Source of the DNA: a virus
DNA length: 64,000 nt
IMG/VR virus record: IMGVR_UViG_3300017987_001891
Location: 1 to 64,000 of that record
Direction: 5' to 3' (one strand)
This document shows, piece by piece, positions 45,130 to 64,000 of this stretch (the first letter of the stretch is position 1; each line of letters starts with the position of its first letter). The notes below the pieces were generated by a model that was given only the letters and a program-made list of their open reading frames with translations, was not told where the DNA came from and searched no databases. The translations under genes were made by a program, and so were the position numbers.

Positions 45130-45141
45130 TAAGGGACGATC

Positions 45142-48746: not shown

Positions 48747-48914
48747 ATGAAGTGGCAGACGAAGACGACAATCGGGTGCCTGATCTTCATGGTCCTGACG
48801 ACAATGTATTATGCGACTTGTCATTGCGACGGGGAGCAGAATGGAGCCGAGCATGAACAGAGCGGACAAGTTGATCGAACGGGAGTTGAAGGGGACGCGG
48901 AATCCCCTGAATGA
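48747..48914 (+). CDS. Small lipoprotein-like or membrane peptide
   Basis: 55 residues with AAGGAAG before the ATG. A basic start (MKWQTK), a hydrophobic stretch (IGCLIFMVLTTMYYATC) and a hydrophilic acidic tail. It could be a membrane peptide or lipoprotein of the lysis or exclusion kind. It overlaps the next gene by 62 bp in another frame. Confidence 0.5.
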   Translation: MKWQTKTTIGCLIFMVLTTMYYATCHCDGEQNGAEHEQSGQVDRTGVEGDAESPE

Positions 48915-49272
48915 AGCCACGAGCGATCTGCGCTCCGGCGTGTCCGTGAGGTCCGATGCGGCTCCCGTGGACATCGAGCTCAAGATGGTCCTGTGCCAGT
49001 ACAGCGCGGGGCGGAAGTGGTCGATCCGTTGCAAGATGGAGGGAGCGTCCGGATACGGCCCGATGTCCTGCGGCGGTCCGATGCGCTGCTACGAAAAGCA
49101 GCTCCCCTATTCGAGCAACGAGCCGCTGACCCCGGAGCAGAAGGCCGAGGTCGAGATGCAGATGCAGGCGATGGCCCGCGAGCTGAAGCCGAAGATTATG
49201 GCCCTTATCGAACAGCTCGATCAGTCGGTCGAGAAGTTGATGGGCGAGAGCGACTTCAAGCCCGTTTACTGA
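48853..49272 (+). CDS. Tagged protein: N-terminal ADxLI module
   Basis: 139 residues. ATG 48853 is chosen because GGAG lies 6 bp before it and because it places MNRADKLIERELKG exactly at the N-terminus, as in the related proteins at 55025, 57495 and 58030. NPLNEA follows, a possible cleavage site of the gp21 type (xxE/A). The body (about 40-139) has five Cys and a helical end and is unrecognised. Proposed to be a packaged or virion-associated protein. Confidence 0.6.
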   Translation: MNRADKLIERELKGTRNPLNEATSDLRSGVSVRSDAAPVDIELKMVLCQYSAGRKWSIRCKMEGASGYGPMSCGGPMRCYEKQLPYSSNEPLTPEQKAEVEMQMQAMARELKPKIMALIEQLDQSVEKLMGESDFKPVY

Positions 49273-49275
49273 TTC

Positions 49276-50193
49276 ATGCTTTTCGGAATCGACTACGATG
49301 GGACGTGGACCGAAGCCCCCGAGCTCTTCAAGTGGTTTGTGGGGATGGTTCGGTCACACGGCCACGATGCGGTGGTGGTAACCCGGCGCGGCGATCCCGG
49401 CGATCCGGGCTTCGAGGCCCAACCCGTCAAGGATGAGATCGACGGCCTGTGCCCCATCGTCTTCTGCGGCCAGCGGCGCAATGACAAGGCCGCTGCCGAT
49501 GCGGGATACGAGGTGGATATTTGGATCGACGATCACCCCCATCTCATAACGAACGATCTACCCGAGGTGAGCGAGCGGAATGAGGTGCATTGGGGGAATA
49601 AGGATTCCGAGAATCCGCAAGAAACCGATGTCATTAACTACCACATCTCGCAGCTTCGGAATTACTTGAAGCGTGCGGGGTTGGGATGGCTCTCCGATCA
49701 GTTGTGGCGCGTTCATGTGTGGAGGAAGCCCCCCATACATCTCGGTGCGCCCCCGTCGGCGGTTGCGGCTTTCGATAGGACGTTCGGACAATTTGCGATC
49801 TACGCGGACAACTTCTTGGAGCACAGGGGCGGGGTGATTCGGATTCGCGAAGCCGAGAAGGATTCGCTGTTTCACGAGCTCGCGCACTATGTGTGGGGTC
49901 GCCACCTCTCCGGTGAAGCGCGGGTGTGGTATAGGGAAGAGTGGAAGAAGTCGAATCAGTTTGTCTCGTCCTATGCCAAGAGCGACCACGAGGAAGATTT
50001 CGCCGAGAATTTCATGCACTTCGTTTCGCCCAAGGGGAAGAAGTTGCCCCCGGAAGCGGCGAATCGGTTTATGGCCGCGATCCAGAACAACCCCCTACCG
50101 GAGAGTGAGATGAGCCGAGCCGACGAATTGATCGAGCAGGAGGTGACCGAGGCGGGGAAGACGAAGAAGAGCAAGTACGACGACACGATATAG
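49276..50193 (+). CDS. HAD + zinc peptidase fusion with ADxLI tail
   Basis: 305 residues in three parts. Residues 1-90 are a HAD domain: FGIDYDGTW, VVTRRGD and VDIWIDDHP, paralogous to the 21375 protein. Residues about 150-265 contain FHELAHYVWG (HExxH, about 199) and DFAENFMHF (about 240), whose Glu could be the third zinc ligand. The C-terminus ends with MSRADELIEQEVTEAGK, a copy of the module found at the N-terminus of other proteins here. No family combining these is known to me. It may be a packaged effector with phosphatase and peptidase activities; both substrates are unknown. Confidence 0.65.
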   Translation: MLFGIDYDGTWTEAPELFKWFVGMVRSHGHDAVVVTRRGDPGDPGFEAQPVKDEIDGLCPIVFCGQRRNDKAAADAGYEVDIWIDDHPHLITNDLPEVSERNEVHWGNKDSENPQETDVINYHISQLRNYLKRAGLGWLSDQLWRVHVWRKPPIHLGAPPSAVAAFDRTFGQFAIYADNFLEHRGGVIRIREAEKDSLFHELAHYVWGRHLSGEARVWYREEWKKSNQFVSSYAKSDHEEDFAENFMHFVSPKGKKLPPEAANRFMAAIQNNPLPESEMSRADELIEQEVTEAGKTKKSKYDDTI

Positions 50194-50199
50194 GAGCGG

Positions 50200-50553
50200 A
50201 TGATGCCGGGAAGCGCAGGCTATGAGTATTGGGCGAAGATTACGAATGTGGTTGACGCCGATACCTTCGACGCCGATGTCGATCTCGGTTTCTATGTGAC
50301 GGTTCACATGCGCTTCCGTCTGAATGCCTACGATGCCCCGGAGACGTGGCGTCCGGTCAACGAAGCGGAGCGCACTCACGGGGAAGCGGCGAAGGCCCAT
50401 GCGGTCAACCTGCTACTCGGAAACAAGATGAAGGTTCGGACCTACAAGCCCGGCAAGTACGGGCGGTGGACGTGCGACGTGATCCTGCCGACCGGCAAGG
50501 ACTACGGGGAGCACATGATCGAGTCCGGATTCGCCAAGCGCGAGAATTATTGA
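50200..50553 (+). CDS. Staphylococcal nuclease-like protein
   Basis: 117 residues of the SNase/thermonuclease OB-fold: ITNVVDADTFDADVDLGF, then RFRLNAYDAPET with the Arg and Glu equivalents of the active site, and KYGRW for the second Arg. Calcium-dependent nucleases of this fold cut DNA and RNA. There is no signal peptide. It sits among the tagged proteins but lacks the tag. Confidence 0.8.
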   Translation: MMPGSAGYEYWAKITNVVDADTFDADVDLGFYVTVHMRFRLNAYDAPETWRPVNEAERTHGEAAKAHAVNLLLGNKMKVRTYKPGKYGRWTCDVILPTGKDYGEHMIESGFAKRENY

Positions 50554-50639
50554 TCCCGGTGCGCTGCGATGCCACCGGCTGAAATCGTCAACGAGCGGGA
50601 GGGCTTCCAAATGGCTGTCACTTGAACAGGAGACAAGTC

Positions 50640-50849
50640 ATGGGAAAGCCGAAATCCCGAAAGCGTAAAGGCCCGAAGAGTACGAGGGGCCGGAATATGG
50701 GCGCACCGCAGAAGATGGAGTGCTTCGGCAAGCGGGTCCGGATGTCGGTCCGCGAGCGTCGAGAGCTCCAGTCGGAGATCGAGGCGTTGGAAGAGTTGGG
50801 TCTTCCAGTGTCAGGCCGACGGCGGGTGCGGATGAATACGTGGTTGTAG
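50640..50849 (+). CDS. Small basic protein
   Basis: 69 residues, very rich in Arg and Lys throughout, with AGGAGA 6 bp before ATG 50640. Nucleic-acid binding is likely. A long hairpin follows the gene. Confidence 0.65.
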   Translation: MGKPKSRKRKGPKSTRGRNMGAPQKMECFGKRVRMSVRERRELQSEIEALEELGLPVSGRRRVRMNTWL

Positions 50850-50874
50850 CAGGACGTTTCTCTACTTCCTCCTA

Positions 50875-50921
50875 GGACCGGGGAGGGGCGGTTACACGAA
50901 AGCCGTTTCCCTCCCCGGTCC
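50875..50921 (+). terminator. Perfect 13-bp hairpin
   Basis: GGACCGGGGAGGG (50875-50887) pairs with CCCTCCCCGGTCC (50909-50921); a second small stem can form in the loop. The core CCGGGGAGGG/CCCTCCCCGG is the same as at 5002-5026. It lies 30 bp before the large multi-module gene. No T-run follows. Confidence 0.6.
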
Positions 50922-50951
50922 GCCCCGTAAATCACGAAAGCGAGATTCACG

Positions 50952-53900
50952 ATGTCGAAACCGAAAATCGAAGAAGCCCGAGTCAAGCCGACCGAGTTGA
51001 TGAAGCTCTTCAAGATCGACGACCCGACGGCGAAGAAGGTCGCTCAGCTGATGCAGAAGCGTGGCGGCGGTCGGCAGATCGAGAAGGTGCTGGATGAGAT
51101 CAACGAGCTCATCGGCGGTTACGGCGTCGAGGCGATCACCAGCCCGGACGTTTCGCTTGACGACTACCCCGGCGGTGTCGATGGACGCTATTGGGGCGCG
51201 AATGCGGGGCAGGGGGTTGTCGCAATGTACGTCAATTTCGGGGACACCTACGATACGACCGTGGTGTTTTCCCCGACCGAGAACAAGTTCCTCCTCACCT
51301 CGTGGGGAGATATGGTCCAGTGGGCCGAGAACAAACACGGATGGACCTTCGAGTCCGTCGAGGATGGAGAATCGGATTTGACCGAGGCAACGACGGTGAC
51401 CTTCAATTTCGGGAGTCCGGGCGACGCCAAGGAATTTCTCGACGACATCAAAACCGACGGCAAGGATGCGACCGGCTTCAAGAAGGGGTCGGTGAAGGGG
51501 AAGTCCGCGATCCTTACCTTCAGCAGCCCGTCCGGCGCGGGTACGGCGAAGAATAACTACGCCAGTGCCTACACCTCGTTCAAGGGTGTGACCGAGGTCG
51601 TGGAGGATGAGGACGATGTGACCGAGGCGAAGTCCACGGTCAAGGTTTCGGTCCCCATCAAGAAGTTGCTGTCCGATCTGATCGGGTCGGTTTACCAGCG
51701 GTACGATCCCGAGACGGTGATCGAACGCCTTTACCAGAACAGCCGACACCTGACGGATTACACGATCCGGGGGTCGAACGTGGAGCTGGTCTTCAACCTC
51801 GACCGGGTGTGGAAGGACTCGATGATGAGCGGCGTGTTTCCGCAGGACTTCACGATGGACGATGCCGAAGAGGAGTTGCGGCGAGACCCGGCCAACGAGC
51901 TGATCGGCGCGTCCCGTGCTGTGATTAAAGACATGACCCGCAATCCCGGCGATTACGGGTACCACCCGTCTGAGAGTGGGGATGCGCCCGCGTCCTCCCT
52001 CGACGAAGCCGATGCGATGATCGAGCGGGCGATGAAGGGTGAGCCGATCTTCGAGGCGGCGATGCCGAAGACGATTGGGAAGATTTTCAAGAACGAAGAG
52101 GGTGCTACCCGCGATGTCTACACCGTTACTTTGAATCCAAAGTTTCATCGGCTCGCCCCGATGGATACGGTTCATGCGGTGGAGTTTGTACTCGAACACG
52201 CGGGTCGGATCATCTCGTATGATCTTGGACCGATTCGGCTCCGCAACCTCCAAAACGATACGGAGATTGAGTGGAAGGATGTACCGTCCGACTTCCAGAG
52301 GGCGATTTTGCATGACAAAACGATTATGAGTAAGTGGGCGCAGGACACTTACGGTGAGGCGATAGGTGAGGAGACCGAGCGGGACACGAAGCGTAAGGCG
52401 TGGATGGACAAGATTTGGTCCAAGATGCCGGGCGAGTACAAGGGCAAGCACGGGGGGAAACCGGCGGTGCTGGTTCTGACTCCCAAGGGTGGCACAACGA
52501 TTATGCCGCTGGCCGATATGAGCGACGCGCAGCTCCGCAAGTTGGCCGGTGTCAAGGAGCATACCGAGATCGAAGAGTGGGATGCGCGGGTGACGTGGCG
52601 GTTGGGCCGTGTTCAGGAGATCGAGGAACAGGGCGCGAGGTGGTCGGCACAGGTGAAGACGAAGTGGACCCCGCCCAAGGGTCTGTTTACCCGGTCGGCC
52701 AAGGAGGTCGCCACGGTTCTTCACAACCAAAGCGAAAGTCTGAAGCAGGCGATGAGCCGCTTGAATTTCTACATCAACCGTGCCGGGTCCAACCTCTCGA
52801 TGGGCCGCAAGCGTGCGCTGAACAACGCCAAGCCGATGCTCCGGCAGATGTTCGGCGAGGTGATGCAGTTGGATCGCATCGATCTCGCCATCGAGGAAGC
52901 CCGTGAGGGTAGTGCGTACCCGGCGGCGGCCTACCTGCTCGATGAGACGATGCAGTGGCCGCTGACGATGGGGCCGACGATCAGTTTCAAGCAGGTCAAG
53001 GGCGATCAGTTCGCCGATGAGTTGCAGCCGACGACCGACGAGGTGGTCCGCAAGGCTCTCGAAGGTGCGGGGCTGAAAGACCCCCGGACATGGATGGAGC
53101 AGATCAAGGTCGATGCGGACAAGGGCTTGGTTCACATGATGGACTTCGATGCGTCCGCTGGGATCGACCCGATGATTATCTCGTGGGATGGTATGCAGTT
53201 CGTGACGAATTTCGCGAGCGGCATTTCCGAGACGGTGATGTCCACGGGATTCGCGGCGGCTCCAATGCCGGTCGGCCATGGGACGATTAAGATGTACCCC
53301 CACATGATCGCCGGGATGGACATCCAGTCGGTGATGATGGGGCAGGACGACGAAGAAGACGATGACGACGAAGAGGTCGATGTCGATTGGGATGAGTTGC
53401 CCGAGGTGACCGAGGCCAGCGTCGCCGCATTCGTGGACGATCTGATGTCGGGGAAGATGAAGGTCGATACCAGCTACGGGAAGAAGAGTCGCGAAGGCAT
53501 CATGTCGATGCTGCGTGGTGGGGGCGACCCCGAGACCGTGGCTGGTGCGCTCTGGCCGACCGCCGCCGACGATCACGAGAAGATGGTCAGTACCCCGTGG
53601 GGTAAGAAGCGGTGGGCCGGTCTGGTCGATCTGGTCAAACGGATTCGCAAGATGAAGGGCGAGCGGGTCGAGGAAGCATCCAAACCCGCTTCGGTCATGG
53701 CGGTCTATCGGAAGGGTGGTGAGATCACCGTTACCGGGAAGACGAAGAACCGGCACGGGGCGTACAACGCCGTGGCGATCCCGACCACGATCAAAAAGGG
53801 TACGTCTCAGGTTCCCGTCGTGGTTGGCGACGAGAGCAACACGATCCCGAGCAATGCCAAGGCGATGAATTGGGAAGACCTGACCCCCGAACAGCAGAAG

Positions 53901-54809
53901 ATCGCCGTCGCCGCGCTCGCCAACCCCGGCACCTATCAGTACGAGGCGGTTGAGGAATTTCGTACCTCTCGGGAGCCGAAGCGTCTAACGCAGCGACAAA
54001 AAGAGAAGATTGCCTCAGCCGCGAGATTGTACTTCGGGAAAACAGGTGTGCGGCGGCGGGGTGATGTCGAAGACTGGATCAGAGATGAGGCGTCCAATCG
54101 CTACGGTGCTTGGACGATAAACCCCAGCGAGGTTTACGACATCCTCTCGATGATTGACATGAAGGCTCTGGAGTCGGTGGAAGAGGAAGCGCAAGGCTTC
54201 GATGTGGGGACGCTGAAGAAGATCGCCGCCGGGGAGGTGGTTCACGACGGCCTCGACAAGAAGGTGGCCGCGAACGTGCTGACGGTTTACGGCAACCTCT
54301 CCGCATCCGATCAGAAGAAGTATCTGGCCCTGCCCCTCGATCAGTTGGTCAGGGTCACCGGGACCGCCATGAAGCGGCTCGGAGAAGCGGAGCTGAAGAG
54401 CGCGGACCCCTCGTATGGATACGATGCCGTCAAAGCGTTTTTGAAGCAGCAGGGCATCTCGGGATCGAAGGGCAAGGGATATGATTGGGCGTTCGAGCAC
54501 GGTCAGCTCTGGATCATTGGCCCGAACGGGGGGCAGTGGAGTGTGGTGGACGCTTCGGGCGGACCGGCTGTTGACGGCTTTGATTTCGAGACGGTCACCG
54601 AACCCAAGGAGTCCACCCGGAAGCTGGGCCTGACCCTGAAGGAGTTCAAGATCGCCAATAACTGCCCGACCCCGCAGCATGGGGGCGGCGGCCACGGCGG
54701 TCTGATGAACCGCATCCAGCGGGGCGAGAAGGACATTCCGGCTTCAGCAGCGGGTGGATCGCTCGATAAGCCGAAGACCGGTTTACTGGCGGGCAAAGCG
54801 GGAGTTTGA
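50952..54809 (+). CDS. 1285-residue multi-module protein, possible polyprotein
   Basis: The largest protein of the window, unrecognised as a whole. It appears to be a string of small domains joined by acidic linkers ending in an xxEA sequence: DLTEATT, DVTEAKS, IFEAAMP, EVTEASV, VEEASKP and LGEAELK. This spacing resembles sites for a T4-gp21-type prohead protease (hydrophobic-x-Glu followed by Ala/Gly). An internal copy of the tag, LDEADAMIERAMKGEPIFE, lies at about 350. DPETVIERLY (about 256) and GGDPETVAGALW (about 860) resemble the second half of the tag. A Gly/His-rich end follows. Together with its neighbours this suggests an inner-head cargo precursor. Cleavage is inferred only. Confidence 0.6.
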   Translation: MSKPKIEEARVKPTELMKLFKIDDPTAKKVAQLMQKRGGGRQIEKVLDEINELIGGYGVEAITSPDVSLDDYPGGVDGRYWGANAGQGVVAMYVNFGDTYDTTVVFSPTENKFLLTSWGDMVQWAENKHGWTFESVEDGESDLTEATTVTFNFGSPGDAKEFLDDIKTDGKDATGFKKGSVKGKSAILTFSSPSGAGTAKNNYASAYTSFKGVTEVVEDEDDVTEAKSTVKVSVPIKKLLSDLIGSVYQRYDPETVIERLYQNSRHLTDYTIRGSNVELVFNLDRVWKDSMMSGVFPQDFTMDDAEEELRRDPANELIGASRAVIKDMTRNPGDYGYHPSESGDAPASSLDEADAMIERAMKGEPIFEAAMPKTIGKIFKNEEGATRDVYTVTLNPKFHRLAPMDTVHAVEFVLEHAGRIISYDLGPIRLRNLQNDTEIEWKDVPSDFQRAILHDKTIMSKWAQDTYGEAIGEETERDTKRKAWMDKIWSKMPGEYKGKHGGKPAVLVLTPKGGTTIMPLADMSDAQLRKLAGVKEHTEIEEWDARVTWRLGRVQEIEEQGARWSAQVKTKWTPPKGLFTRSAKEVATVLHNQSESLKQAMSRLNFYINRAGSNLSMGRKRALNNAKPMLRQMFGEVMQLDRIDLAIEEAREGSAYPAAAYLLDETMQWPLTMGPTISFKQVKGDQFADELQPTTDEVVRKALEGAGLKDPRTWMEQIKVDADKGLVHMMDFDASAGIDPMIISWDGMQFVTNFASGISETVMSTGFAAAPMPVGHGTIKMYPHMIAGMDIQSVMMGQDDEEDDDDEEVDVDWDELPEVTEASVAAFVDDLMSGKMKVDTSYGKKSREGIMSMLRGGGDPETVAGALWPTAADDHEKMVSTPWGKKRWAGLVDLVKRIRKMKGERVEEASKPASVMAVYRKGGEITVTGKTKNRHGAYNAVAIPTTIKKGTSQVPVVVGDESNTIPSNAKAMNWEDLTPEQQKIAVAALANPGTYQYEAVEEFRTSREPKRLTQRQKEKIASAARLYFGKTGVRRRGDVEDWIRDEASNRYGAWTINPSEVYDILSMIDMKALESVEEEAQGFDVGTLKKIAAGEVVHDGLDKKVAANVLTVYGNLSASDQKKYLALPLDQLVRVTGTAMKRLGEAELKSADPSYGYDAVKAFLKQQGISGSKGKGYDWAFEHGQLWIIGPNGGQWSVVDASGGPAVDGFDFETVTEPKESTRKLGLTLKEFKIANNCPTPQHGGGGHGGLMNRIQRGEKDIPASAAGGSLDKPKTGLLAGKAGV

Positions 54810-54820
54810 TTGACACGAAC

Positions 54821-54846
54821 CGGGGTTTCGTGATCGACAAACCCCG
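54821..54846 (+). terminator. Hairpin after multi-module gene
   Basis: CGGGGTTT (54821-54828) pairs with AAACCCCG (54839-54846); the flanking ACAC and GTGT can extend it. It starts 11 bp after the stop of the 1285-residue protein. A likely transcript end. Confidence 0.6.
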
Positions 54847-54874
54847 TTGTGTTCAATGTGTGACCCTCAATGTT

Positions 54875-54936
54875 CGGAGCTCCGATACTACCGAACCCGA
54901 AGTATCGGAGCTTCGGGCGTAAGTATCGGAGCTCCG
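54875..54936. repeat. Three copies of AGTATCGGAGCTCCG
   Basis: A reverse copy at 54875-54889, a direct copy with one change at 54901-54915 and a perfect direct copy at 54922-54936. Each holds the palindromic core CGGAGCTCCG (or one mismatch). The set could form alternative hairpins or be a cluster of operators upstream of the 55025 gene. Confidence 0.75.
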
Positions 54937-54959
54937 GTATTAAAGCAAAGCGCGGAATC

Positions 54960-54984
54960 TTTAATTACGCATCGTGCAATTAAA
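54960..54984. repeat. AT-rich inverted repeat
   Basis: TTTAATT (54960-54966) and AATTAAA (54978-54984), with a further TTTAATT nearby at 54989. This is the most AT-rich spot of the right half, and a promoter or operator is likely here. Confidence 0.5.
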
Positions 54985-55024
54985 ATACCTTTAATTCTCG
55001 AAACCCCGGAAACGTGAAACAACG

Positions 55025-55432
55025 ATGAGCGACTACTCCGCTGACAGCCTGATTCAGAAGGTCATGGACGGGGCGCACCCCGCCGACATGGTTGAAGCCT
55101 GCCTCGTTGGCGACTACGAGGACGGGGGCTTCTCCGGGCTGTTGATCGGGTTCATGCAGTCGCACGGGGTGCGGATGTTCCGCAACGAACGGTTTCAACC
55201 GAAGCGCGGCCATTCAACCTTCATTACGGAGTGCGTGAACGGCCAGCGTCGGCATTACAAGGTCCGGGTAGAGTCGGTGGACGGCCTGCCCTCGAAGGTC
55301 CGGGTGGAATGTATCACCACGGGCTATAAGAGAGTAGTCGAAGGCGACGCAGCGGAAATCTTCAAGCTGATCCGCCAGACGGTTCTCCCGGCAATCCAAG
55401 TCGAATACGCTGACCTGTCTGGAGAATCGTGA
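55025..55432 (+). CDS. Tagged protein: N-terminal ADxLI module
   Basis: 135 residues. The first 27 carry the module: SADSLIQKVMDG, then AHPADMVEACL. The rest (about 40-135) is a small alpha/beta domain with many Arg residues, unrecognised. It follows a repeat-rich leader. Proposed cargo or virion-associated protein. Confidence 0.65.
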   Translation: MSDYSADSLIQKVMDGAHPADMVEACLVGDYEDGGFSGLLIGFMQSHGVRMFRNERFQPKRGHSTFITECVNGQRRHYKVRVESVDGLPSKVRVECITTGYKRVVEGDAAEIFKLIRQTVLPAIQVEYADLSGES

Positions 55433-55911
55433 TGGCGAATGGAAATGCCAACGGTAACGGGAAGTGGAAAGTGACTGAAGGATTCGCGAGATGGCTCCCG
55501 TTTATTTTCACGGTTCTCCTCGCTCTTATTGGTGGTGCGATGGCGTACTCCCGCAGCGATGCGGGGTTGAACAGCCGTGTCGGGTCGGTGGAGAAGGCGG
55601 TGGATAAGCTCGACGAGCAGGTCGAGAGTGCCGCCGCGAAGGCCGAGCGGCTTCGCCGGGAGAACGAAGAGGACCGTCATGCTCAGGGAACCGAGACGAC
55701 GACCTTGAAGGTTAAGATCGACACGCAGAAGGAAAACGTGGATAAGTTGGTCAATCACGTAGACGGCCTGCGCATCGAGCAGACGCGGATCAGGACGGAA
55801 ATGGAAACGATCAAGGAATCGGTGGGCGAGGTTCAAGAGGACGTGAAGGAGATTGGCCGATCCGTCCGGAGAATCGAGCAGGCCGTACAACGGCAAGGAG
55901 ATCATCCATGA
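55432..55911 (+). CDS. Membrane-anchored coiled-coil protein
   Basis: 159 residues. Asn/Gly-rich start, then a membrane helix (WLPFIFTVLLALIGGAMAY, about 22-40), then a long coiled coil (about 48-155) with heptad-like spacing. This could be a holin- or spanin-like lysis protein, a tail-needle-like rod or a membrane-piercing protein; nothing decides between these. GTG 55429 is an alternative start one codon earlier. Confidence 0.65.
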   Translation: MANGNANGNGKWKVTEGFARWLPFIFTVLLALIGGAMAYSRSDAGLNSRVGSVEKAVDKLDEQVESAAAKAERLRRENEEDRHAQGTETTTLKVKIDTQKENVDKLVNHVDGLRIEQTRIRTEMETIKESVGEVQEDVKEIGRSVRRIEQAVQRQGDHP

Positions 55912-56528: not shown

Positions 56529-56761
56529 CCTGATCGGGGGGCGGCGGGCCGTAACCGACAACCTCGGCATGGATGCCTTGGTGCTCTACCATGATGGACG
56601 CAGCAGTGGTCGTTACTCCCTCGGCTCGTAAGCCCCCCGTACCCCGACAGTGAATCGCCCGGAGTGGCCGGGCAACCACGAGTAGCTCCTCGTCGCAGCC
56701 GTTCAATGCGAGGGGCGGTTATCATAATCGTTCAACGTGACGAACGAAAGGAGACAAGAGA
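56529..56761 (+). other. 233-bp gap with long-range inverted repeat
   Basis: No convincing gene. CGGGGGGC (56535-56542) and GCCCCCCG (56632-56639) are perfect complements 89 bases apart. The rest contains no promoter I can name. It separates the two paralogous structural genes; AAAGGAGA at its end serves the next ATG. Confidence 0.5.
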
Positions 56762-57433
56762 ATGGCTGAAAGATTTCTGGGAATGCGCCCGAACGAAGGT
56801 CAGGACCTCATCATCAATCTGGAAGAGAATCAGCTCCCGGTTTCTCTTCGGATGGGGCCGCAGTCCTTCGAGGAGGATGATACGAACGACGCTTCGATCC
56901 TCCTGAAGATTACGAACACGCTCGACGACGGGACCGTGGAGCAAGTCAACGGTACGCTGGTCGAGGACGAAGACACGACCAAGGCCGGTGCCGTCGGTGG
57001 CGACAAAGCCGCCTTTTCTGGTACGCTGGCGACCGTGGCGGGTGACGCCACCTACGCCGTGATTCCCGGCACCGTGAACATTCACACGCTGGCCGAATCC
57101 GACGATGAGGTGATCTCGCTGGAAGACACCTACGGCGACGGCGTGCTGTACGATGAGGATGGCAACGAGGCCGGGTCCATCAGCTACTTTACGAGCGCGT
57201 GGAGCGGCACGTTCAGCAAGAATGTGAAGGCTTCCGAGGCCATCGACGCGACGTTCTATTGGACCACCGAGATTCCGCTGAACGGACGCGTAACGCTGAT
57301 CCCGACCGATGCCGACACCCGCCTGCCGATTCTGCCGCGCTGGGGCCGTCTGAGTATTCAGGGCTTCGTGGACGTGGCGAAGGCCATCGCGGTCGAGGCG
57401 CAGATCACCGACGACAGCTCGGGCATCAATTAA
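56762..57433 (+). CDS. Structural-type beta protein, copy 2
   Basis: 223 residues, acidic and beta-rich. AGSISYFTSAWSG, then ATFYWTTEIPLNGRVTLIP, corresponds to the conserved part of copy 1. A likely tail-tube, decoration or baseplate-type protein. A GC-rich hairpin follows the stop. Confidence 0.65.
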   Translation: MAERFLGMRPNEGQDLIINLEENQLPVSLRMGPQSFEEDDTNDASILLKITNTLDDGTVEQVNGTLVEDEDTTKAGAVGGDKAAFSGTLATVAGDATYAVIPGTVNIHTLAESDDEVISLEDTYGDGVLYDEDGNEAGSISYFTSAWSGTFSKNVKASEAIDATFYWTTEIPLNGRVTLIPTDADTRLPILPRWGRLSIQGFVDVAKAIAVEAQITDDSSGIN

Positions 57434-57440
57434 CCGCTCA

Positions 57441-57470
57441 CCGGGGGGCTGACTCACCTTGGCCCCCCGG
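57441..57470 (+). terminator. Perfect 9-bp GC hairpin
   Basis: CCGGGGGGC (57441-57449) pairs with GCCCCCCGG (57462-57470). It begins 7 bp after the stop of the structural gene. No T-run; possibly an mRNA 3'-end or attenuator. Confidence 0.6.
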
Positions 57471-57494
57471 CCTCTCAACGAAAGGAGTGATCCT

Positions 57495-57947
57495 ATGCTG
57501 CGAACAGCGGATCAGATGATCGATAAAGTGCTGGCGGGGGACGCTCCGGCGAGTGTGATCGAGCGGGCGCACGAGTCCGAGGAGACCGAACCCGATAACG
57601 TCGCGTCGGCGAAGAAGATGGTCAAAAACATGGGGAAAGACCCCGACTCGCCGGAAGGCAAGAAGCTCATCGCCAAGTTTGCCCGCAACGTGGACAAGTT
57701 CAAAAAGGAAAGCCGCTCGAAGACCGAGGGACAGATGACGCTGATCTCGAAGGTGCCGAGTCGGATCACAAAGGCGGTGGACATGCTTCTCGCCAAGAAC
57801 GATTACGTCGAGGTGCTGCTTGGGATCAATAACTGGATCGAGAAGCAGGCCGCGCATCTGCGGGCCATCGGCGATCCGGAGGCCGATGCGCTGGACGCCT
57901 TCGGCGACCGGCTGAACATGGTCATTGACCAAGCCCCCAATCTGTAA
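57495..57947 (+). CDS. Tagged protein: N-terminal ADxLI module
   Basis: 150 residues, with AAAGGAG 8 bp before the ATG. The module is MLRTADQMIDKVLAG, then DAPASVIERA. The body is basic and helical with VASAKKMVKNMGKDPDSPEG near 37, which has the plant-like look of some phage inner-head proteins but no recognised family. Confidence 0.65.
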   Translation: MLRTADQMIDKVLAGDAPASVIERAHESEETEPDNVASAKKMVKNMGKDPDSPEGKKLIAKFARNVDKFKKESRSKTEGQMTLISKVPSRITKAVDMLLAKNDYVEVLLGINNWIEKQAAHLRAIGDPEADALDAFGDRLNMVIDQAPNL

Positions 57948-57955
57948 GTTGATCC

Positions 57956-58011
57956 ATCGGTGCGTCCGGCAGAGACGACGACAACCTCCTCTTCCTGTTG
58001 GACGCACCGAT
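57956..58011 (+). terminator. Intrinsic terminator, 12-bp stem
   Basis: ATCGGTGCGTCC (57956-57967) and GGACGCACCGAT (58000-58011) are perfect complements around a 32-base loop, followed by TTT. It lies between two tagged genes, so the ADP-ribosyltransferase gene that follows can be controlled separately. Confidence 0.6.
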
Positions 58012-58029
58012 TTTCTACTGCGAGGAACG

Positions 58030-59211
58030 ATGAACGCAAACGACTTGATCCAAGAGGTGTTGAACGGCTGTGCCCCGGATCAGGTAGTGGCCCGTCTGTA
58101 CGAGAAGCGGCAGAAGTCGGCCAAGCCGAGGATTTACTACCACGGTACGAGTGAGACGGCGTGGGAGCACATCAAACGTGCGGGCGGTCTCGATCCCGAT
58201 GCCGAACCGATCTGGACCGATGAGGAAGATGAGGGTGTGCGGGGAACGGTTTCCCGCCAAAACCTGACCACGTTCGGAGGGGTGTACTTCACGCCCCAGA
58301 TGGAGAAGGCCGGTAACGCCGGTTCCCGGTCGAAGGTTCGGTACGGCGATGATCGGCAGGTGATTATCGTGGCGCAGATTCAGCCGCGATCCGCCTTCCT
58401 CGACGAAGACGTGGTGTCCCCGCTGGTGGTCAAGGCGGCGGACTATGCGATCCGAACCACGGCGGATTACTACAGGTGGAAGGACGATCACGGGAGACGG
58501 CTCAACGAATGGGAGGCTCTCGGTTACTGGGTCGCCAGCTACCTCGACAACGAAGACCCCGGTGGGGGTGCGGAGTTTGCTCAGGATTTGTTCGACCGGC
58601 TCGATCAGTATGCCCGAGAGATCGAGGTGGAGCCGCCGTCGGACGCGCACCCGAAGTTGTATAATCTGTTGTGGCGGCTTTTCGAGTCGCACTTCGAGAT
58701 CGAGGTTTTGCGGCAGGTTAGCCACACCCGGCAGCGTGCTTCAGACTATTTCTACGGCGGGATTTATGCCTATCACTATTGGGATCGTGTCGAGAACATG
58801 GGTTGGGATGTGAGCGAAGACGACTCGGAGTTGGAGCAGTTCATCAAGGACGAGCTGATTCCGGAGACCCGTTTGGATATTCCGTCCGCCGCTGAAGCGG
58901 AACGGGACTCGCGGGAGGGGATCGACCGCATGACCCGCCTGCTCAAGGGGCTGTCTCTCGGGAAGAGTCCGGACGGCGATCTCTCGATCCGGGTTCTGGA
59001 CAAGATCGACTTCAGGGGCCGCAACAAGATTCTGGCCGTGATTGCATTCAGCTCTCCGCAACGGGGCGAGGTGATCTACGGCAAGCTTCCGTCGAAAGCG
59101 AAGAGCGACGCGAAGCAGTTGTTCAAGCAGGTGGTCGATCCGACCGAGATTCGACGCCGGAAGCGCGAGCCGGGTATCCCCCGACAAGCGCGTTTGTTTG
59201 GAGCGGCATGA
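58030..59211 (+). CDS. PARP-type ADP-ribosyltransferase-like protein
   Basis: 393 residues. The N-terminal tag is MNANDLIQEVLNG, then CAPDQVVARLYE. YYHGTSETAWEHIKRAGGL (about 36-54) and FGGVYFTPQMEKA (about 83-95) correspond to the HG-[TS]...I...GL and FGxGIYF...SA blocks of PARP/Tpt1-type transferases (His and Tyr of the H-Y-E/D triad). IQPRSAFLDED follows, and the third position is not certain. The C-terminal part (170-393) is unrecognised. A partial paralogue starts at 63619. T4 Alt is a head-packaged ADP-ribosyltransferase of a different (R-S-E) class; a similar role is inferred from the tag and the context. Confidence 0.6.
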   Translation: MNANDLIQEVLNGCAPDQVVARLYEKRQKSAKPRIYYHGTSETAWEHIKRAGGLDPDAEPIWTDEEDEGVRGTVSRQNLTTFGGVYFTPQMEKAGNAGSRSKVRYGDDRQVIIVAQIQPRSAFLDEDVVSPLVVKAADYAIRTTADYYRWKDDHGRRLNEWEALGYWVASYLDNEDPGGGAEFAQDLFDRLDQYAREIEVEPPSDAHPKLYNLLWRLFESHFEIEVLRQVSHTRQRASDYFYGGIYAYHYWDRVENMGWDVSEDDSELEQFIKDELIPETRLDIPSAAEAERDSREGIDRMTRLLKGLSLGKSPDGDLSIRVLDKIDFRGRNKILAVIAFSSPQRGEVIYGKLPSKAKSDAKQLFKQVVDPTEIRRRKREPGIPRQARLFGAA

Positions 59212-59954
59212 TGGGCGTGCGTGGACTCTACCAGCAGGCAACCAAGGTCGGCGATGAGCTGGCCGATTTCGTCTACGACTTCACCGAGGAGCTGATTGCC
59301 TACGAGGACTATCTCGGTACGATCCTCGCGGGGGGCTTCCGGGTTAAGCCGTCGGCGAACGCGCTCTCGATCAATGACCAGACGGCGAAGTGGAACAAAC
59401 AGTACCAAGGGATCGGTGAAGCGATCCGACAGTGGCGCGATAACTTGGAGGGGGCGTGGAATGGCGACACCTTCGAGTTGCAGAATATGATCGACAAGGA
59501 GTTCGGGGCGATCTCGAAGAGGCAGCTCAGCGGGATCGAGGAGGACGAGATACGTACTTTCCACCCGAATGCTTATAAGCGGGGGGCGCAGTCCCATGAT
59601 CGCGAGATCATGCGGGATGCCAAGCGGCTTTTGCGGATGCTGGATCAGGCGGTGACGTTTCTGAAGGGCTTCCACAAGGTCTGGGCAAAGGCTCCGCTGG
59701 AGGGGACGACGGCGTGGCTCCGTACTCAGGAGCTCGAATTACTCGAAGCGAAAATCGCGGACTACACCATGCTACGCAACGAGGCCAAAGCGATGATTGC
59801 ATCCGGCTACCTCGATCTGGACCGGATGATAAACGACTTCAATAAAATTTTCCCGCCGCGCCTTGTGATGAAGGAGTCGGCGGACACCTTAATTCAGTGG
59901 GCGATCCATGGCGATCCCGTTGCGGTCGTCGAGTGGGTTTTTAGGGATAACTAG
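59208..59954 (+). CDS. Helical protein with C-terminal ADxLI module
   Basis: 248 residues, mostly helical. It ends with KESADTLIQWAIHG, then DPVAVVEWVF, the same module that other proteins carry at the N-terminus. An in-frame ATG (59871) precedes this tail. It overlaps the transferase gene by ATGA-type spacing, so the two may be co-produced. No family is recognised. Confidence 0.65.
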   Translation: MMGVRGLYQQATKVGDELADFVYDFTEELIAYEDYLGTILAGGFRVKPSANALSINDQTAKWNKQYQGIGEAIRQWRDNLEGAWNGDTFELQNMIDKEFGAISKRQLSGIEEDEIRTFHPNAYKRGAQSHDREIMRDAKRLLRMLDQAVTFLKGFHKVWAKAPLEGTTAWLRTQELELLEAKIADYTMLRNEAKAMIASGYLDLDRMINDFNKIFPPRLVMKESADTLIQWAIHGDPVAVVEWVFRDN

Positions 59955-59963
59955 GAGCTCTTA

Positions 59964-60455
59964 ATGCCCTACGAAAAGAAACGCAGTGGACGGAATCTTG
60001 AGTCTGCATCTCCCCGCGAGGTGGCGTCGATTCAGGTGGCGGGCATCGTCGGTTTTTTCACTGACGGTGTTCACGATGTGATCGAGGCGGTGGACGACAG
60101 CGAGCTCTCCGATACTCCCGCGAACGATGAGGATGTGGAGCCGATCTTCGTCGGCGACTTCACCCAACTTTGCCTCTATTGCAACTACGTCAAGGCAGGA
60201 AGCACGCGGGTCGCCGTCCAGCTCAAGGTTTCGTATAAAGAGGACGGCCCGTACTTTCCGGTCCCGTATACGAGTCCTCCTGCGGGCGGCGCGGTAAAGC
60301 TCAACGATATGATTTACCGCCGTGACGACAACGGACCGTTTCCTATTCCCCAGCCGAATTTCGGATTTCAGTGGCTGAAGGTATTCGTCTACGGACAGGG
60401 AAATCTGGCGGGAGCGAGTTGCGAGGTTCACGTTGCGCGGGGGTGGGGTAACTAA
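59964..60455 (+). CDS. Structural-type hypothetical protein
   Basis: 163 residues, beta-rich, no signal peptide, with AGGAGC before the ATG. It directly precedes the tail fibre and overlaps its start by one base (TAATG), so a tail or baseplate role is plausible. No family is recognised. Confidence 0.6.
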   Translation: MPYEKKRSGRNLESASPREVASIQVAGIVGFFTDGVHDVIEAVDDSELSDTPANDEDVEPIFVGDFTQLCLYCNYVKAGSTRVAVQLKVSYKEDGPYFPVPYTSPPAGGAVKLNDMIYRRDDNGPFPIPQPNFGFQWLKVFVYGQGNLAGASCEVHVARGWGN

Positions 60456-62368
60456 TGAGCTACGCATTCAATCCGAATATCTCTTCTGACAACTGGAAGG
60501 GTGAGGTCCAAGAGCTTTACGATCCGACCGGAGGTCTGCCGACACCGGGCGCGGTGGGCGAGCAGTATATCGCATCGGCTACGGCGAACGGGTGGACGGA
60601 AAATTATATCTACCAGTGGGACGGCGCGGTATGGGTCGAGATCGTTCCGGCAGGTGGGGATCAGGTACTTAACGACGATTCGGGTACGGTGCTGATTTTC
60701 GGGGGTGCGGGTTGGGAAGACTTTGGGACGGCGGTCAATCACAGCTCGCTGGCCGGTCTTGCCAATGACGACCATCCTCAGTACCACGACGATACCCGCG
60801 CCGACTTGCTTTATTTCCGGCAGCCCGTGCTCTACCAGAAGCCCGAGGTGGATCAGGTTGCGTTCGAGGAGCGCAGCACGGTCACCTGCGGCGTTGGGCA
60901 GGACTACGAGACATTCAAGTCCGCTGTCGATGCGTTGAACGCGAAGGGCGGCGGAACGATTTACCTCACCGATGCTTCGATGGCATTCGGTGATGATGAT
61001 CTCAATCTGTCGCAGATCATCCTCGCATCGACGGTCCCGAACGCTGTTGCGCCGCCCTATTTGCTGATGAATGGGAACGGCCACGTCGTCGGAAGTGTGT
61101 GTCGTTTGGTCAGCGTGCGCCTCGTGCTGGCGGGCGATGCGGGAGCGAACGCTTATATCTTTGCCGACGATGCGGCCAAGGTTGTGTTTCTGAACGAGCT
61201 CTCCATTGTCGGTGGCGACACCTTCGTTGCGGGGAACGCGGGCCAGTCCATTTTTCAGCAGGACGGCCAAGGCCACACGCACATCGTCGCGTTGAACAAC
61301 ATTTCGATCCTCGATCCGCTTTTGGCTCAGGACGCAACGCGGACCTTGATCCCGGCTGGTACGTCGAAGCTGGAGTTGTTCGCGTGGAACCATTCTGCGG
61401 TTGGGGGGAACCTGACCGACCTGAATAATTACTACTACGAGCCGAGCGTCGCGTTTATCAACGGCCCGCCCGACATCGGTAAAGCCGGGAATACGGCGGA
61501 CAAGGTAAGGTACGATGCGAGTAATAGCGTTGCGGACAAGCTCGACGCGCTCGAAGACGGGAAGATCGACGAGGTATCCGGAGCGGATGGAGAGATTCCA
61601 CTGTTCACGGCTGCGGGCCAGCTCGTAAGTAGTGGGGAGACCCCGGCGGACTTCGCGGATGCCTCGCATACTCACCCGGCCTCCGAGGTTACCGACTTCG
61701 ATACCGAGGTGGAGAACAACACCGAGGTAACGGCGAACACGACGCATCGCGGATTGACCAACAATCCCCATTCGGTGACCAAGACGCAGGTCAGTCTGGG
61801 GAACGTGACCGACGATGCGCAGCTCAAGCGTGCGGCCAACGACTTCTCGTCGTTCGATCAGAAGGACGATCCGGACGAATCCGATCTGCTCTTGATCGAG
61901 GATCAGGACGATAGCGGTGCGAAGAAGTATGTAGCTATCGAAGACTTGCCGATGGGCTGGCATCTCGAAGATGCGTCCGAAGGCGAGTCTCAAACATCGA
62001 GTAATACGTGGCAGCAGAAATTGAGGCTGTCTACGGGAGCGATTCCCGCTGGTCGTTATCGCATCGGCTGGTACTTCGAGACCGATGTCAACAATACGCA
62101 AACCGATGTGACCGAAGCTCGTGTGCAGGTTGACGATACGGATACGCTGGCAAGCATCGAGAATGCCGCGCATTTCGATAGCACATCGTCGATGAAGGGC
62201 GATTGGCATCCGTGCGGCGGCTTTGCTTATGTCGATTTGGATGAAGATTCTCACGACATCGACATCGATTATCGAGCGAACACCAGCCCGAATGTCATCG
62301 CATATATTCGTAGAGCACGTTTGGAAATTCATCGTGTAACTGTCGAAGCCGCAGGAGTGCCGACCTAA
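60455..62368 (+). CDS. Tail fibre protein
   Basis: 637 residues. NHSSLAGLANDDHPQYHDDT (about 99-118), the DASHTHPASEVTDFDT segment (about 406) and GLTNNPHSVTKTQVSLGNV (about 433) are the repeat types of phage tail-fibre stalks. The final about 120 residues form a compact beta domain, probably the receptor-binding tip. No chaperone gene is recognisable directly downstream. Confidence 0.85.
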   Translation: MSYAFNPNISSDNWKGEVQELYDPTGGLPTPGAVGEQYIASATANGWTENYIYQWDGAVWVEIVPAGGDQVLNDDSGTVLIFGGAGWEDFGTAVNHSSLAGLANDDHPQYHDDTRADLLYFRQPVLYQKPEVDQVAFEERSTVTCGVGQDYETFKSAVDALNAKGGGTIYLTDASMAFGDDDLNLSQIILASTVPNAVAPPYLLMNGNGHVVGSVCRLVSVRLVLAGDAGANAYIFADDAAKVVFLNELSIVGGDTFVAGNAGQSIFQQDGQGHTHIVALNNISILDPLLAQDATRTLIPAGTSKLELFAWNHSAVGGNLTDLNNYYYEPSVAFINGPPDIGKAGNTADKVRYDASNSVADKLDALEDGKIDEVSGADGEIPLFTAAGQLVSSGETPADFADASHTHPASEVTDFDTEVENNTEVTANTTHRGLTNNPHSVTKTQVSLGNVTDDAQLKRAANDFSSFDQKDDPDESDLLLIEDQDDSGAKKYVAIEDLPMGWHLEDASEGESQTSSNTWQQKLRLSTGAIPAGRYRIGWYFETDVNNTQTDVTEARVQVDDTDTLASIENAAHFDSTSSMKGDWHPCGGFAYVDLDEDSHDIDIDYRANTSPNVIAYIRRARLEIHRVTVEAAGVPT

Positions 62369-63261
62369 TGTCGTATGTGCACATCAAGACGAAATCCGCT
62401 CCGATCAATCTGGTTCGCCTGAAAGCGGAGATCAACGCGGATGCGGGTATCCCGAAGGCGATTGAGGAGCTGGTTTGGAACGAACCGGATGTGCTGGAAT
62501 GCACGTTCGATGAAAATTTGCTTGGCCCCGAAGAGGCTCAGCTGGATGTCGTTCTGGCGGCACACGACGGCACTCCCCTCCCGGAGTGGTATGTGTATTG
62601 TCTGGCGTGTGCGGAGCTCGGTAGGGTGGCCGCGCTGGAGGCACCGACATCCTGCCCGACATGCGGAAGCGGTGAAGTGGTCCTGCGCGATCTTCCGCAC
62701 GGCGAGACCGTGCTCGGGGTTCTGGAGGATTTGAAGCTGTCCGAGACGGTGATTATCGACGCGGAGGCTCCCGAAGGGGTGTGCGCGATGTCGCGGGTGC
62801 AATTCACGGATGGCATCCCCTATATCCCTCTTCCGCCCGGTGTGGACACCACGCTATCTTTTTCCCGGTCGTATCCGTTGAAGGCGGATCGGAATTTTCC
62901 CGTCGATTTCAACTTCGGGTACTGTCCGGGAGACGATCAGCTGGGGAATGTGCTGTGGGAGTTCGAGTATGGCTATGTGGAGCCGGGGACGGTTGTGGGG
63001 GAAGGCATGTATACGGGCGGTCCCTTATCTTACGCTTTTCCCGCACAGGGCATTCCACAGGGCATGATGTACCATCCCCCGCGTCACCCTTCGTTTCCGG
63101 AGGCAGGCTCGGGCTTTGTGGTGCCGGGGGCTACCGGAAGATTCGGCGTCTCGATCAGGTTGCGGCGCAAGGGTTCGTCGGCTGGTGACACCTATCCGGG
63201 TACGATCCAATATCGAGGTACGGCCTTGATGTTCTATTGGGATGTTCTGGGAGTTAAGTGA
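62368..63261 (+). CDS. Structural-type protein with zinc ribbon
   Basis: 297 residues. An N-terminal alpha/beta part is followed by CLAC and CPTCGSG (about 80-100), a zinc ribbon, then a Pro/Gly/Tyr-rich beta domain (about 140-297). TAATG overlap with the fibre gene. Possibly a fibre accessory or attachment protein; no family is recognised. Confidence 0.6.
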   Translation: MSYVHIKTKSAPINLVRLKAEINADAGIPKAIEELVWNEPDVLECTFDENLLGPEEAQLDVVLAAHDGTPLPEWYVYCLACAELGRVAALEAPTSCPTCGSGEVVLRDLPHGETVLGVLEDLKLSETVIIDAEAPEGVCAMSRVQFTDGIPYIPLPPGVDTTLSFSRSYPLKADRNFPVDFNFGYCPGDDQLGNVLWEFEYGYVEPGTVVGEGMYTGGPLSYAFPAQGIPQGMMYHPPRHPSFPEAGSGFVVPGATGRFGVSIRLRRKGSSAGDTYPGTIQYRGTALMFYWDVLGVK

Positions 63262-63635
63262 TGAAAACGATCCCGATGGGCGAGGATTGGGCCGCTGGAG
63301 CGATTCAGGCGGTGATCGAGGGTAAAGACCCGTCCGAGGTGGTTTCGACGCTGTACGGCCCGCGTCAGGGACGATTCGAGGAGGTTTCAGCCGGTGGTAA
63401 GGGCATGGAAGAAGCAAAAAACCGCTACAAGGACCGGATCAAGGCTCTCCCCACGTGGGTAAAAATCAAGGAGATCGTCCAGAAGGGGCGGAAGATGTTC
63501 CAGTTGATCCGTACTGATCTGCCCCCGAAGAGTCCCCGGACGCCGATCCTCGGTCTCTTTACGAATCGGGAGGCTGCGGTGGACCGGGCGTGGCGGTGGT
63601 ACGGCGAGGTGACGACCTATGCTGTCTCCCGGTGA
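63261..63635 (+). CDS. Tagged protein: N-terminal module variant
   Basis: 124 residues. After MKTIPMGED it reads WAAGAIQAVIEG, then KDPSEVVSTLYG, a variant of the shared module. The body is basic and helical. GTG 63258 is an alternative start. It overlaps the next transferase gene by 17 bp. Confidence 0.6.
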   Translation: MKTIPMGEDWAAGAIQAVIEGKDPSEVVSTLYGPRQGRFEEVSAGGKGMEEAKNRYKDRIKALPTWVKIKEIVQKGRKMFQLIRTDLPPKSPRTPILGLFTNREAAVDRAWRWYGEVTTYAVSR

Positions 63636-64000
63636 CCTGATCCAACAGGTGATCGAGGGGGCTGACCCGGAACGGTTGGCCGAGGCGATTCTCACCGAGC
63701 GGAAACGCGCTCCATTGGTCGATGCCTTTCACGGCACTTCGTACTTGCGGTGGCAAGACATCAAACGTAACGGCCTGAAACCATCATCTCCGAAGGTGTG
63801 GGGATTCAACAAGGGGCAGGTGGACGAGCCTTCGACGATTTCGGTGGGCGGGATTTATCTTTCCTCTTTCGAGTCGATGCGAAGGGCGAGCAAGTTCAAT
63901 GCGTTTCATGCTGCCCTCAAAGCCCACCGAGCGGACAAGTCTTGGCCGGTGCTGATTCACGTTAGGATTCAACCCCGGCAGGCATCCGTGGACGAGGATG
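63619..64000 (+). CDS. Second PARP-type transferase-like protein (partial)
   Basis: At least 127 residues; the frame is open at the window end. MLSPGDLIQQVIEG, then ADPERLAEAILTE, is the tag. FHGTSYLRWQDIKRNGL (His at 38, the same position as in the 58030 protein) and SVGGIYLSSFESMRRAS (about 74-90) match the first two ADP-ribosyltransferase blocks, and IQPRQASVDED aligns with IQPRSAFLDED. Clearly paralogous to the 58030 protein. The C-terminal part is outside the window. Confidence 0.6.
   Translation, partial: MLSPGDLIQQVIEGADPERLAEAILTERKRAPLVDAFHGTSYLRWQDIKRNGLKPSSPKVWGFNKGQVDEPSTISVGGIYLSSFESMRRASKFNAFHAALKAHRADKSWPVLIHVRIQPRQASVDED

Follow-up and report, generated by a model that had tools for sequence, protein, structure and literature searches.

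A repeated module on many proteins of an uncultured T4-type phage, a candidate head-targeting tag

Results

The tagged gene block

The window analysed here, bases 1 to 64,000 of the 71,946-base virus record IMGVR_UViG_3300017987_001891 (G000), ends in a run of genes whose products share a short module. An earlier note on this DNA had described it as ADxLIxxVLxG followed by xxPxxVVxxL and had proposed that it is a tag directing proteins into the phage head. The nine copies listed there are all present (Table 1).

Two other records, IMGVR_UViG_3300017989_000071 (G001; 117,644 bases) and IMGVR_UViG_3300018080_000448 (G003; 30,299 bases), come from the same phage population, and the three records together were the basis of the module searches. 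G001 matched the window at 99.995% across 62,903 bases and extends further upstream. G003 bridges the two, overlapping G000 where that record ends and G001 where that record begins, so that arithmetic from the record overlaps would imply a closed map of about 129 kb. Scans for close relatives of the 1285-residue tagged protein, of the capsid protein and of an alignment of ADP-ribosyltransferase-like (ART-like) tagged proteins yielded eight loci, every one of them in a record overlapping or matching the same phage. The window contains a terminase match at 11835, and neither a capsid gene nor an intact prohead protease gene was found in it.

Table 1. Genes carrying the module in the window, and genes carrying the separate tag of Maribacter phage Colly_1 (crude gene calls)
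Position	Strand	Protein	Module place, start residue and DNA	Site at or beside the tag	Leave-one-out score (bits)
48853..49272	+	139 residues	N-terminal; residue 4; from 48862	LNE/A	9.9, slightly below best shuffle
49276..50193	+	305 residues; HAD-like plus HExxH metallopeptidase-like	C-terminal; residue 282/305; 50119-50190	VTE/A	11.2
50952..54809	+	1285 residues; multi-domain; DUF3175 (E 1.5e-11)	internal; residue 353/1285; 52008-52070	flanks LDE/A and IFE/A	5.8, weak
55025..55432	+	135 residues	N-terminal; residue 6; from 55040	MVE/A	17.2
57495..57947	+	150 residues; helical by eye	N-terminal; residue 5; from 57507	VIE/R	16.0
58030..59211	+	393 residues; ART-like (HGTS); Tpt1/KptA E 0.03, below cut-off	N-terminal; residue 3; from 58036	LYE/K	18.8
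59208..59954	+	248 residues	C-terminal; residue 225/248; 59880-59951	VVE/W	3.2, weak
63261..63635	+	124 residues	N-terminal variant; residue 11; from 63291	no LxE at tag end	15.2
63619..64000, runs beyond window	+	start of 348-residue protein; ART-like (HGTS)	N-terminal; residue 4; from 63628	LAE/A and LTE/R	18.5
Colly_1: 12767, 13207, 16398, 17312, 17557, 21723, 49629, 97734, 107390, 117536, 117852		Colly_1 tag genes	N-terminal
Colly_1: 11996, 16904		Colly_1 tag genes	internal

A profile trained on the nine window copies only was run over all six frames of the three records. This search, which the earlier note had suggested, recovered six untrained copies at E < 0.01. The best (E 6e-7) lies in a small basic protein encoded one gene ahead of the prohead protease, and another (E 2.4e-4) in the gene following the capsid gene. 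Three (E 2e-5, 2.4e-5 and 2.7e-5) are in adjacent tagged genes just beyond the window, two of which occur only in G003, and the sixth is at G000 position 68639 (E 3.3e-3). A copy at 66251 scored E 0.25, and the copies at 69610 and 71549 were not significant with this profile, their E values of 10 to 18 being at the level of two unrelated matches.

The total is 18 copies in one phage population (12 N-terminal, three C-terminal and three internal): 14 in G000 (the nine in the window plus 64662, 66251, 68639, 69610 and 71549), two in an insertion found only in G003, and two in the head operon. The head-operon copies were read from G003, and the one after the capsid gene is present in G001 too. 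In a leave-one-out analysis of all 18 copies, with three near-identical neighbours dropped together and 20 proteome shuffles as background, 13 scored above the best shuffle (10.3 bits), the highest reaching 33.7 bits and 66251 passing barely (10.4). Five fell below it: 48853, 50952 and 59208 (Table 1), 69610 (4.7 bits) and 71549 (2.7 bits). These five weak copies are supported by position and by eye as much as by score. The copies are confined to one gene block that ends directly past the capsid gene, and the profile search found no convincing copy outside this block in the three records, replication genes and most tail genes included.

The head operon

In G003 the tagged block leads, on one strand, into a tagged 91-residue basic protein, a 123-residue protein, a protease fusion, the capsid gene and a tagged 73-residue protein that weakly matches zinc ribbons. 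The capsid protein resembles gp23 (phrog_138, E 3.6e-52) and matched 2,489 phage records, all at less than 60% identity, with Listeria phage LIS04 at the top (35%). The prohead protease is a Peptidase_S77 (E 2.6e-17 in the genome search, in which one of 14 control genomes gave a signal, under the cut-off; E 1.3e-14 against Pfam). Alignment to T4 gp21 showed three residues retained (His in G-E-x-x-H-P, Ser in G-V-S-S-R-G and the Asp preceding G-P-S), which we take to be the catalytic residues. The second part of the fusion is called scaffold-like from its acidic, coiled-coil look, and it gave no match to a scaffold; the protease gene of LIS04 is of a length comparable to the fusion. Sheath, tube and tape measure genes are present, as are a portal gene (phrog_213, E 2.5e-45) and a terminase large subunit match (E 1.3e-8). 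By its gene content the phage is a T4-type myovirus with a gp23-type capsid and a gp21-type protease.

The tagged 91-residue protein is 35% Lys plus Arg and is encoded near the place of T4 gp67/gp68, one gene ahead of the protease fusion. It had no Pfam match over the cut-off. By eye it has KALxRFNxR in common with Colly1_69, the product of a Colly_1 gene between portal and protease-scaffold, whose basic stretch resembles it. On composition and position, it is probably a component of the head core.

Three other genes bear some likeness to head genes. At window 36735-37334 lies a degenerate gp21-type protease relative with an NGRVYP motif (Peptidase_S77 E 1.5e-4, below the cut-off), far from the head genes and without the GExxHP histidine region in the alignment; it is probably an inactive paralog. 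A 420-residue open reading frame (ORF) at window 31522-32784, distant from the capsid gene, has a weak match to the phrog_138 major head protein (E 4e-5, residues 343-389). Downstream of the capsid gene in G003 (L018:12748-13080, minus strand), a ferritin-like 111-residue protein (EncFtn-like, E 1e-5, below the cut-off) starts MKKRLTLQINE/A, which looks like a possible cleaved leader.

Sites resembling cleavage sites

The earlier note had also remarked that sequences of the form xxE/A follow several copies. This held more broadly: [LIVM]xE ending at +11 to +24 from the module start occurs in 17 of the 18 copies, against a shuffle mean of 7.5 and with none of 5000 shuffles as high. The Glu is at the exact offset +18 in eight copies; over all copies, the residue that follows the site is Ala in six and otherwise K, R, F, W, I, T or Q. 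Site counts were then taken over 5,841 residues of tagged protein (200 shuffles) and 27,822 residues of crude untagged ORFs of G001 (100 shuffles), with patterns picked after the sequences had been viewed. [LIVMF]xEA occurs 25 times in the tagged set (shuffle mean 9.4, maximum 18) and 55 times in the untagged set (mean 39.7, maximum 59). Among five other patterns, [LIVMF][TSN]EA alone exceeded every shuffle of the tagged set (6, maximum 5).

The two largest tagged proteins are rich in such sites. The 1285-residue protein has six [LIVMF][TE]EA sites against 0.3 in shuffles (0 of 5000 as high), and a 673-residue tagged protein has ten [LIVMF]xE[AST] sites against 3.3 (5 of 5000). From their sequences, these sites read like domain boundaries that a protease would cut, and the 1285-residue protein would be polyprotein-like.

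The tagged proteins

The bodies to which the module is attached had been called unrelated. With the module masked, this was borne out for most of them. The exceptions are a four-member family, made up of 58030, 63619, 64662 and one gene of G003 (E down to 1e-34), and a weakly similar pair of domains, in which residues 906-989 of the 1285-residue protein resemble residues 175-264 of the 673-residue protein (E 0.014). The four-member family carries an HGTS motif, which is also found in 69610. Its HGTS region matched Tpt1/KptA (RNA 2'-phosphotransferases) in Pfam at E 0.02-0.06 in three of the four members, the fourth giving no match, and a profile of the four members matched two Tpt1 chains in the PDB at E 0.08-0.09. 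One of the three members searched against NCBIfam (64662 lay outside that set) had a match at E 9e-4, far below the cut-off. PARP13, PARP16 and tankyrase were among the Foldseek rows for the ART-like model, none at E <= 0.001. On these weak resemblances we name the family ART-like, not ART.

The protein encoded at 68639 (L002:8639-9613) has a 2_5_RNA_ligase2 (2H) domain (E 8e-11) preceding the tag, and resembles the anti-CBASS protein Acb1 more weakly (3e-4, below the cut-off); this tagged 2H phosphoesterase is possibly an injected counter-defence enzyme. The 49276 protein matched phrog_4256 (E 5.6e-18), a domain that we label HAD on our own reading, and Peptidase_Mx (E 0.003, below the cut-off). 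An untagged relative of its HAD-like domain, with the same two PHROGs, is encoded at 21375, and the tag is therefore an added part, not a property of the HAD-like fold. Pfam gave nothing above the cut-off for most other tagged proteins searched, and PADLOC gave no match for the ten of 18 tagged proteins searched.

Two genes of a different kind lie among the tagged ones: a tail-fibre-like gene at window 60455, and a gene for a 343-residue cysteine-rich protein (L002:7053-8084) with a lipoprotein-like signal (MKTKWLWLVAILAFALVGC) and no module copy in the profile searches.

Tag form, codon variation and possible cassette exchange

The tag is about 22 residues long. AlphaFold models of an ART-like body (low confidence) and of the 91-residue basic protein (mean predicted local distance difference test (pLDDT) score 87.5, single sequence) both place a helix at 3-11, a turn, and a helix from 16, so the module is predicted to form a short helix-turn-helix tag on two unrelated bodies. 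Older copies keep the key residues while their codons vary (Ile by ATC, ATT and ATA; Gly by GGG, GGC and GGT), and over 12 core codons in all pairs of 16 copies there were 298 same-residue and 897 residue-changing differences. Selection therefore probably operates on the tag peptide.

The tag DNA is near-identical across three neighbouring genes. G003 holds two tagged genes, between those at 63619 and 64662, that are absent from G000. Over the tagged gene, G000 follows the first G003 copy through base 41 and agrees with the third from base 13 onward, which places the exchange in a stretch of 29 bases common to both, within the tag. Recombination at the tag could account for the two-gene difference, and repeat collapse in assembly would look the same.

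Search for the module elsewhere

Wide use of the module in cells had been named in the earlier note as evidence that would speak against the capsid-targeting reading. No sign of such use was seen with a strict exact DNA pattern, which misses most of the phage's own copies. In 84,980 bacterial and archaeal species (one genome each), the pattern occurred in 22 stretches, with a single match in each and the two best scoring 20.3 and 18.2 bits; no convincing second copy was found within up to 8 kb around any of them. Since the pattern had preselected them, we took these 22 matches as chance. Among 2.9 million viral contigs it occurred in four stretches, one being the same phage and the others scoring 19.4, 10.1 and 5.8 bits. 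The 19.4-bit stretch, at residue 627 of a 669-residue ORF that we interpret as an unrelated phage's portal protein, was likewise taken as chance. A tblastn search with one 28-residue tag against 50,697 phage records, at E up to 10, gave no match, the power being low for so short a query. The module was undescribed in the literature covered by a limited set of searches. Judged by titles and the opening of abstracts, the papers using the term 'capsid targeting sequence' (CTS) concern T4 or its uses, P1, SPN3US and P22.

A separate tag in Maribacter phage Colly_1

The cultured phage Colly_1 (MT732450) has a gp23-like capsid protein, with 29% identity to the one described here, and an annotated protease-scaffold fusion. 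It carries a private tag of its own, [IL]-K-x-L-[IV]-E-S..., in 13 copies, 11 N-terminal and two internal (Table 1). A comparison of all N-termini gave a 19-member cluster built around this tag, chance members included; a profile from ten seeds found three more copies (E 1e-6 to 4e-5), two of them internal and one in an annotated NUDIX protein. In Colly_1, 31 of 195 crude genes have [LIVMF]xE[AGS] near the N-terminus (shuffle mean 21, maximum 29). A tblastn search placed the tag in 8 records, all of Maribacter phages. The phage of the window is therefore not alone in having a private repeated tag.

Homology between the module and the Colly_1 tag was rejected: hhalign gave a probability of 0.4 of 100, and the best 12 rows of the Colly_1 profile on the window's phage contained no module copy. 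The best Colly_1 row of the module profile, at the N-terminus of a 92-residue protein, scored 9.0 bits, below shuffle level, and is not claimed.

The comparison of N-termini is insensitive, finding four copies in the window's phage itself and missing the short tag of T4. Applied to Sinorhizobium phage phiM9 (22,000 of 27,495 pairs tested) it returned homing endonucleases plus a single noise cluster, and applied to 42 kb of T4, homing endonucleases only; given the insensitivity, a miss there is no evidence of absence. The accessible part of PMC8776804 gives no virion proteomics of Molly/Colly; in it 'mass spectrom' is absent and 'proteom' occurs once.

Discussion

Comparison with known head-entry signals

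The closest known counterpart is the CTS of the T4 internal proteins IPI, IPII and IPIII. It too is a short sequence common to otherwise unrelated proteins in a phage with a T4-type head and a gp21 protease, with hydrophobic-x-Glu at or near the tag end (MKTYQEFIAE/A in IPII and IPIII, MKTFKEF...ITE/A in IPI), and its cargo is host-directed in the accessible parts of PMC3012670 and PMC12373910. The T4 propeptides are 10-20 residues long and cut after Glu (PMC5694885, consulted in part). The module differs in being about 22 residues long, with a predicted helix-turn-helix, and in occurring on about 18 proteins in one phage, including proteins of 1285 and 673 residues. Homology to T4 gp67, whose N-terminus (MEGLIEAIKSNDLVAARKLF) looks alike by eye, was rejected, the module profile not picking gp67 out. 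Across 1,279 phage records that N-terminus was present a single time in each, and hence it is not a repeated tag by that search.

Phages phiKZ and SPN3US share with the present proposal cleavage after Glu by a related protease and many ejected proteins. According to the accessible part of PMC5694885, several of their propeptides exceed 100 residues and one has 20, the cuts fall at A-x-E or similar motifs, and the paralogs gp53 and gp54 have identical N-terminal 15 residues; that part describes no tag on many unrelated proteins. For P1, the N-terminal 30 residues of DarB suffice to carry a reporter into the capsid (PMC9024508, in the part available); DarB differs in being one large protein of another phage type, for which that part mentions no repeated tag. 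By sequence and by its freedom from a strict N-terminal position the module is not the T4 CTS, and on the comparison above it would work most like the T4, giant-phage and P1 signals.

The head-targeting reading and its rivals

We consider it probable, though well short of certain, that the module is a head-targeting tag that acts like the T4 CTS yet is unrelated to it, longer, and not only N-terminal. The profile built from the window alone predicted tagged genes in the head operon. The T4-like scheme of the earlier note is partly supported: a gp23-type capsid, a Peptidase_S77 protease and a tagged core-like protein came from other records of the phage, and these head genes, unseen when the idea was formed, fit it closely. 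In their placement, the C-terminal and internal copies differ from the T4 tags. We infer packaging, cleavage and injection of the tagged proteins, and our confidence in cleavage at the predicted Glu is lower than that in head targeting.

Several observations weigh against this reading. T4 tags are N-terminal, whereas six of the 18 copies here are C-terminal or internal (three of these six being among the weak copies), and when the module profile was run on 42 kb of T4, its best 12 rows included neither the internal proteins nor gp67, gp68 or gp22. At the tag end, the Glu offsets vary, the next residue is often bulky or basic (K, R, F, W, I), unlike the small residue in T4, and 63261 has no hydrophobic-x-Glu. 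The 17 occurrences in 18 copies are also not 18 independent events, because the copies are mutually related and the second helix is amphipathic. In the tagged set, [LI]xE[AG] (17, maximum 18), [LIVM]xE (124, maximum 129), TEA (6, maximum 6) and EA (50, maximum 54) did not rise above every shuffle, and in the untagged ORFs [LIVM]xE (512, maximum 490) and [LIVMF][TSN]EA (15, maximum 14) did; since untagged ORFs exceed their shuffles for some motifs, we lowered our confidence in head targeting slightly. The ART-like body was modelled at a mean pLDDT of 62.5 and had no PDB match at E <= 0.001 (Foldseek). Misassembly at the repeated tag could also produce the two-gene difference between G000 and G003.

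The strongest rival, which we consider unlikely, is that the tag serves as a helix for docking to, or oligomerisation in, another phage or host assembly (tail, baseplate, host polymerase or metabolic complex), with a role late in infection and no packaging. A helix-turn-helix could bind anything, C-terminal and internal placement suits a binding motif better than a cleaved leader, and the tail-fibre-like gene at 60455 lies inside the tagged block. Against this, two tagged genes belong to the head operon, one of them a single gene ahead of the protease; hydrophobic-x-Glu near the tag end and its enrichment in two large proteins fit a head protease; and the rest of the three records, with the replication genes and most tail genes, contains no convincing copy. 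Signal sequences load effectors into the tail tube of extracellular contractile injection systems, and a similar loading could be imagined for a phage with sheath and tube genes and a tail-fibre-like gene among the tagged ones. The head is indicated instead by the tagged core-like protein and by the tagged gene that follows the capsid gene, the 1285-residue protein would be large for a tube lumen, and we give tail-tube loading very little weight.

We think it just as improbable that the module is a selfish or passive recombination joint, spreading by homologous exchange, whose peptide has no function. The near-identical tag DNA in three neighbouring genes, with an exchange point within the tag, is what such a joint would leave; yet older copies differ in codons and keep the key residues, and C-terminal placement needs an in-frame insertion every time. 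Chance resemblance of common amphipathic helices has next to nothing in its favour beyond the five of 18 copies below the best proteome shuffle. For the core set of copies it is refuted by the six untrained matches at E < 0.01 and by leave-one-out scores of up to 33.7 bits against 10.3 for the best shuffle; the five weak copies stay outside that verdict.

Proposed mechanism and implications

Should the module be a head-targeting tag, it would bind the prohead core, where its likeliest partner is the half of the protease fusion that is acidic and looks like a coiled coil, and the tagged proteins would be enclosed as the prohead forms. During maturation the gp21-type protease would cut at hydrophobic-x-Glu, trimming N- or C-terminal tags and, in the same step, splitting the two large multi-domain tagged proteins into pieces. 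The freed proteins (ART-like, 2H phosphoesterase, HAD/metallopeptidase and others) would exit with the DNA into the next bacterium and act there ahead of any phage gene expression. T4 Alt is a packaged, injected ADP-ribosyltransferase. Because the tag DNA is near-identical among recent copies, recombination inside the tag could add or delete whole cargo genes.

More tentatively, and with odds that we would place below even, distant T4-type lineages may each keep a private, transplantable head-entry tag, usable at either end or internally, that recruits at least a dozen effectors and core proteins and doubles as a recombination joint for effector cassettes, the large tagged proteins being polyproteins cut in the prohead. 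If the proposal is true, the injected arsenal of an uncultured phage would be readable from sequence through a repeated tag, and the tagged set (ART-like, 2H phosphoesterase, HAD/metallopeptidase and many unknowns) would supply candidates for early takeover and counter-defence. A similar search gave the second, unrelated tag in cultured Colly_1, where the claim is directly testable. If the tag functions at either terminus, it would also offer a new means of loading proteins into phage heads.

Other features of the window

Promoter-like sites between 48500 and 64000 numbered 3, against 4.7 in shuffles, and terminator-like sites 17, against 13.1; no inference was drawn from these scans. Upstream, at window 43060-47151, two visibly similar proteins of 689 and 669 residues are encoded in tandem, the first without a PHROG match, and both look like surface or tail-spike proteins.

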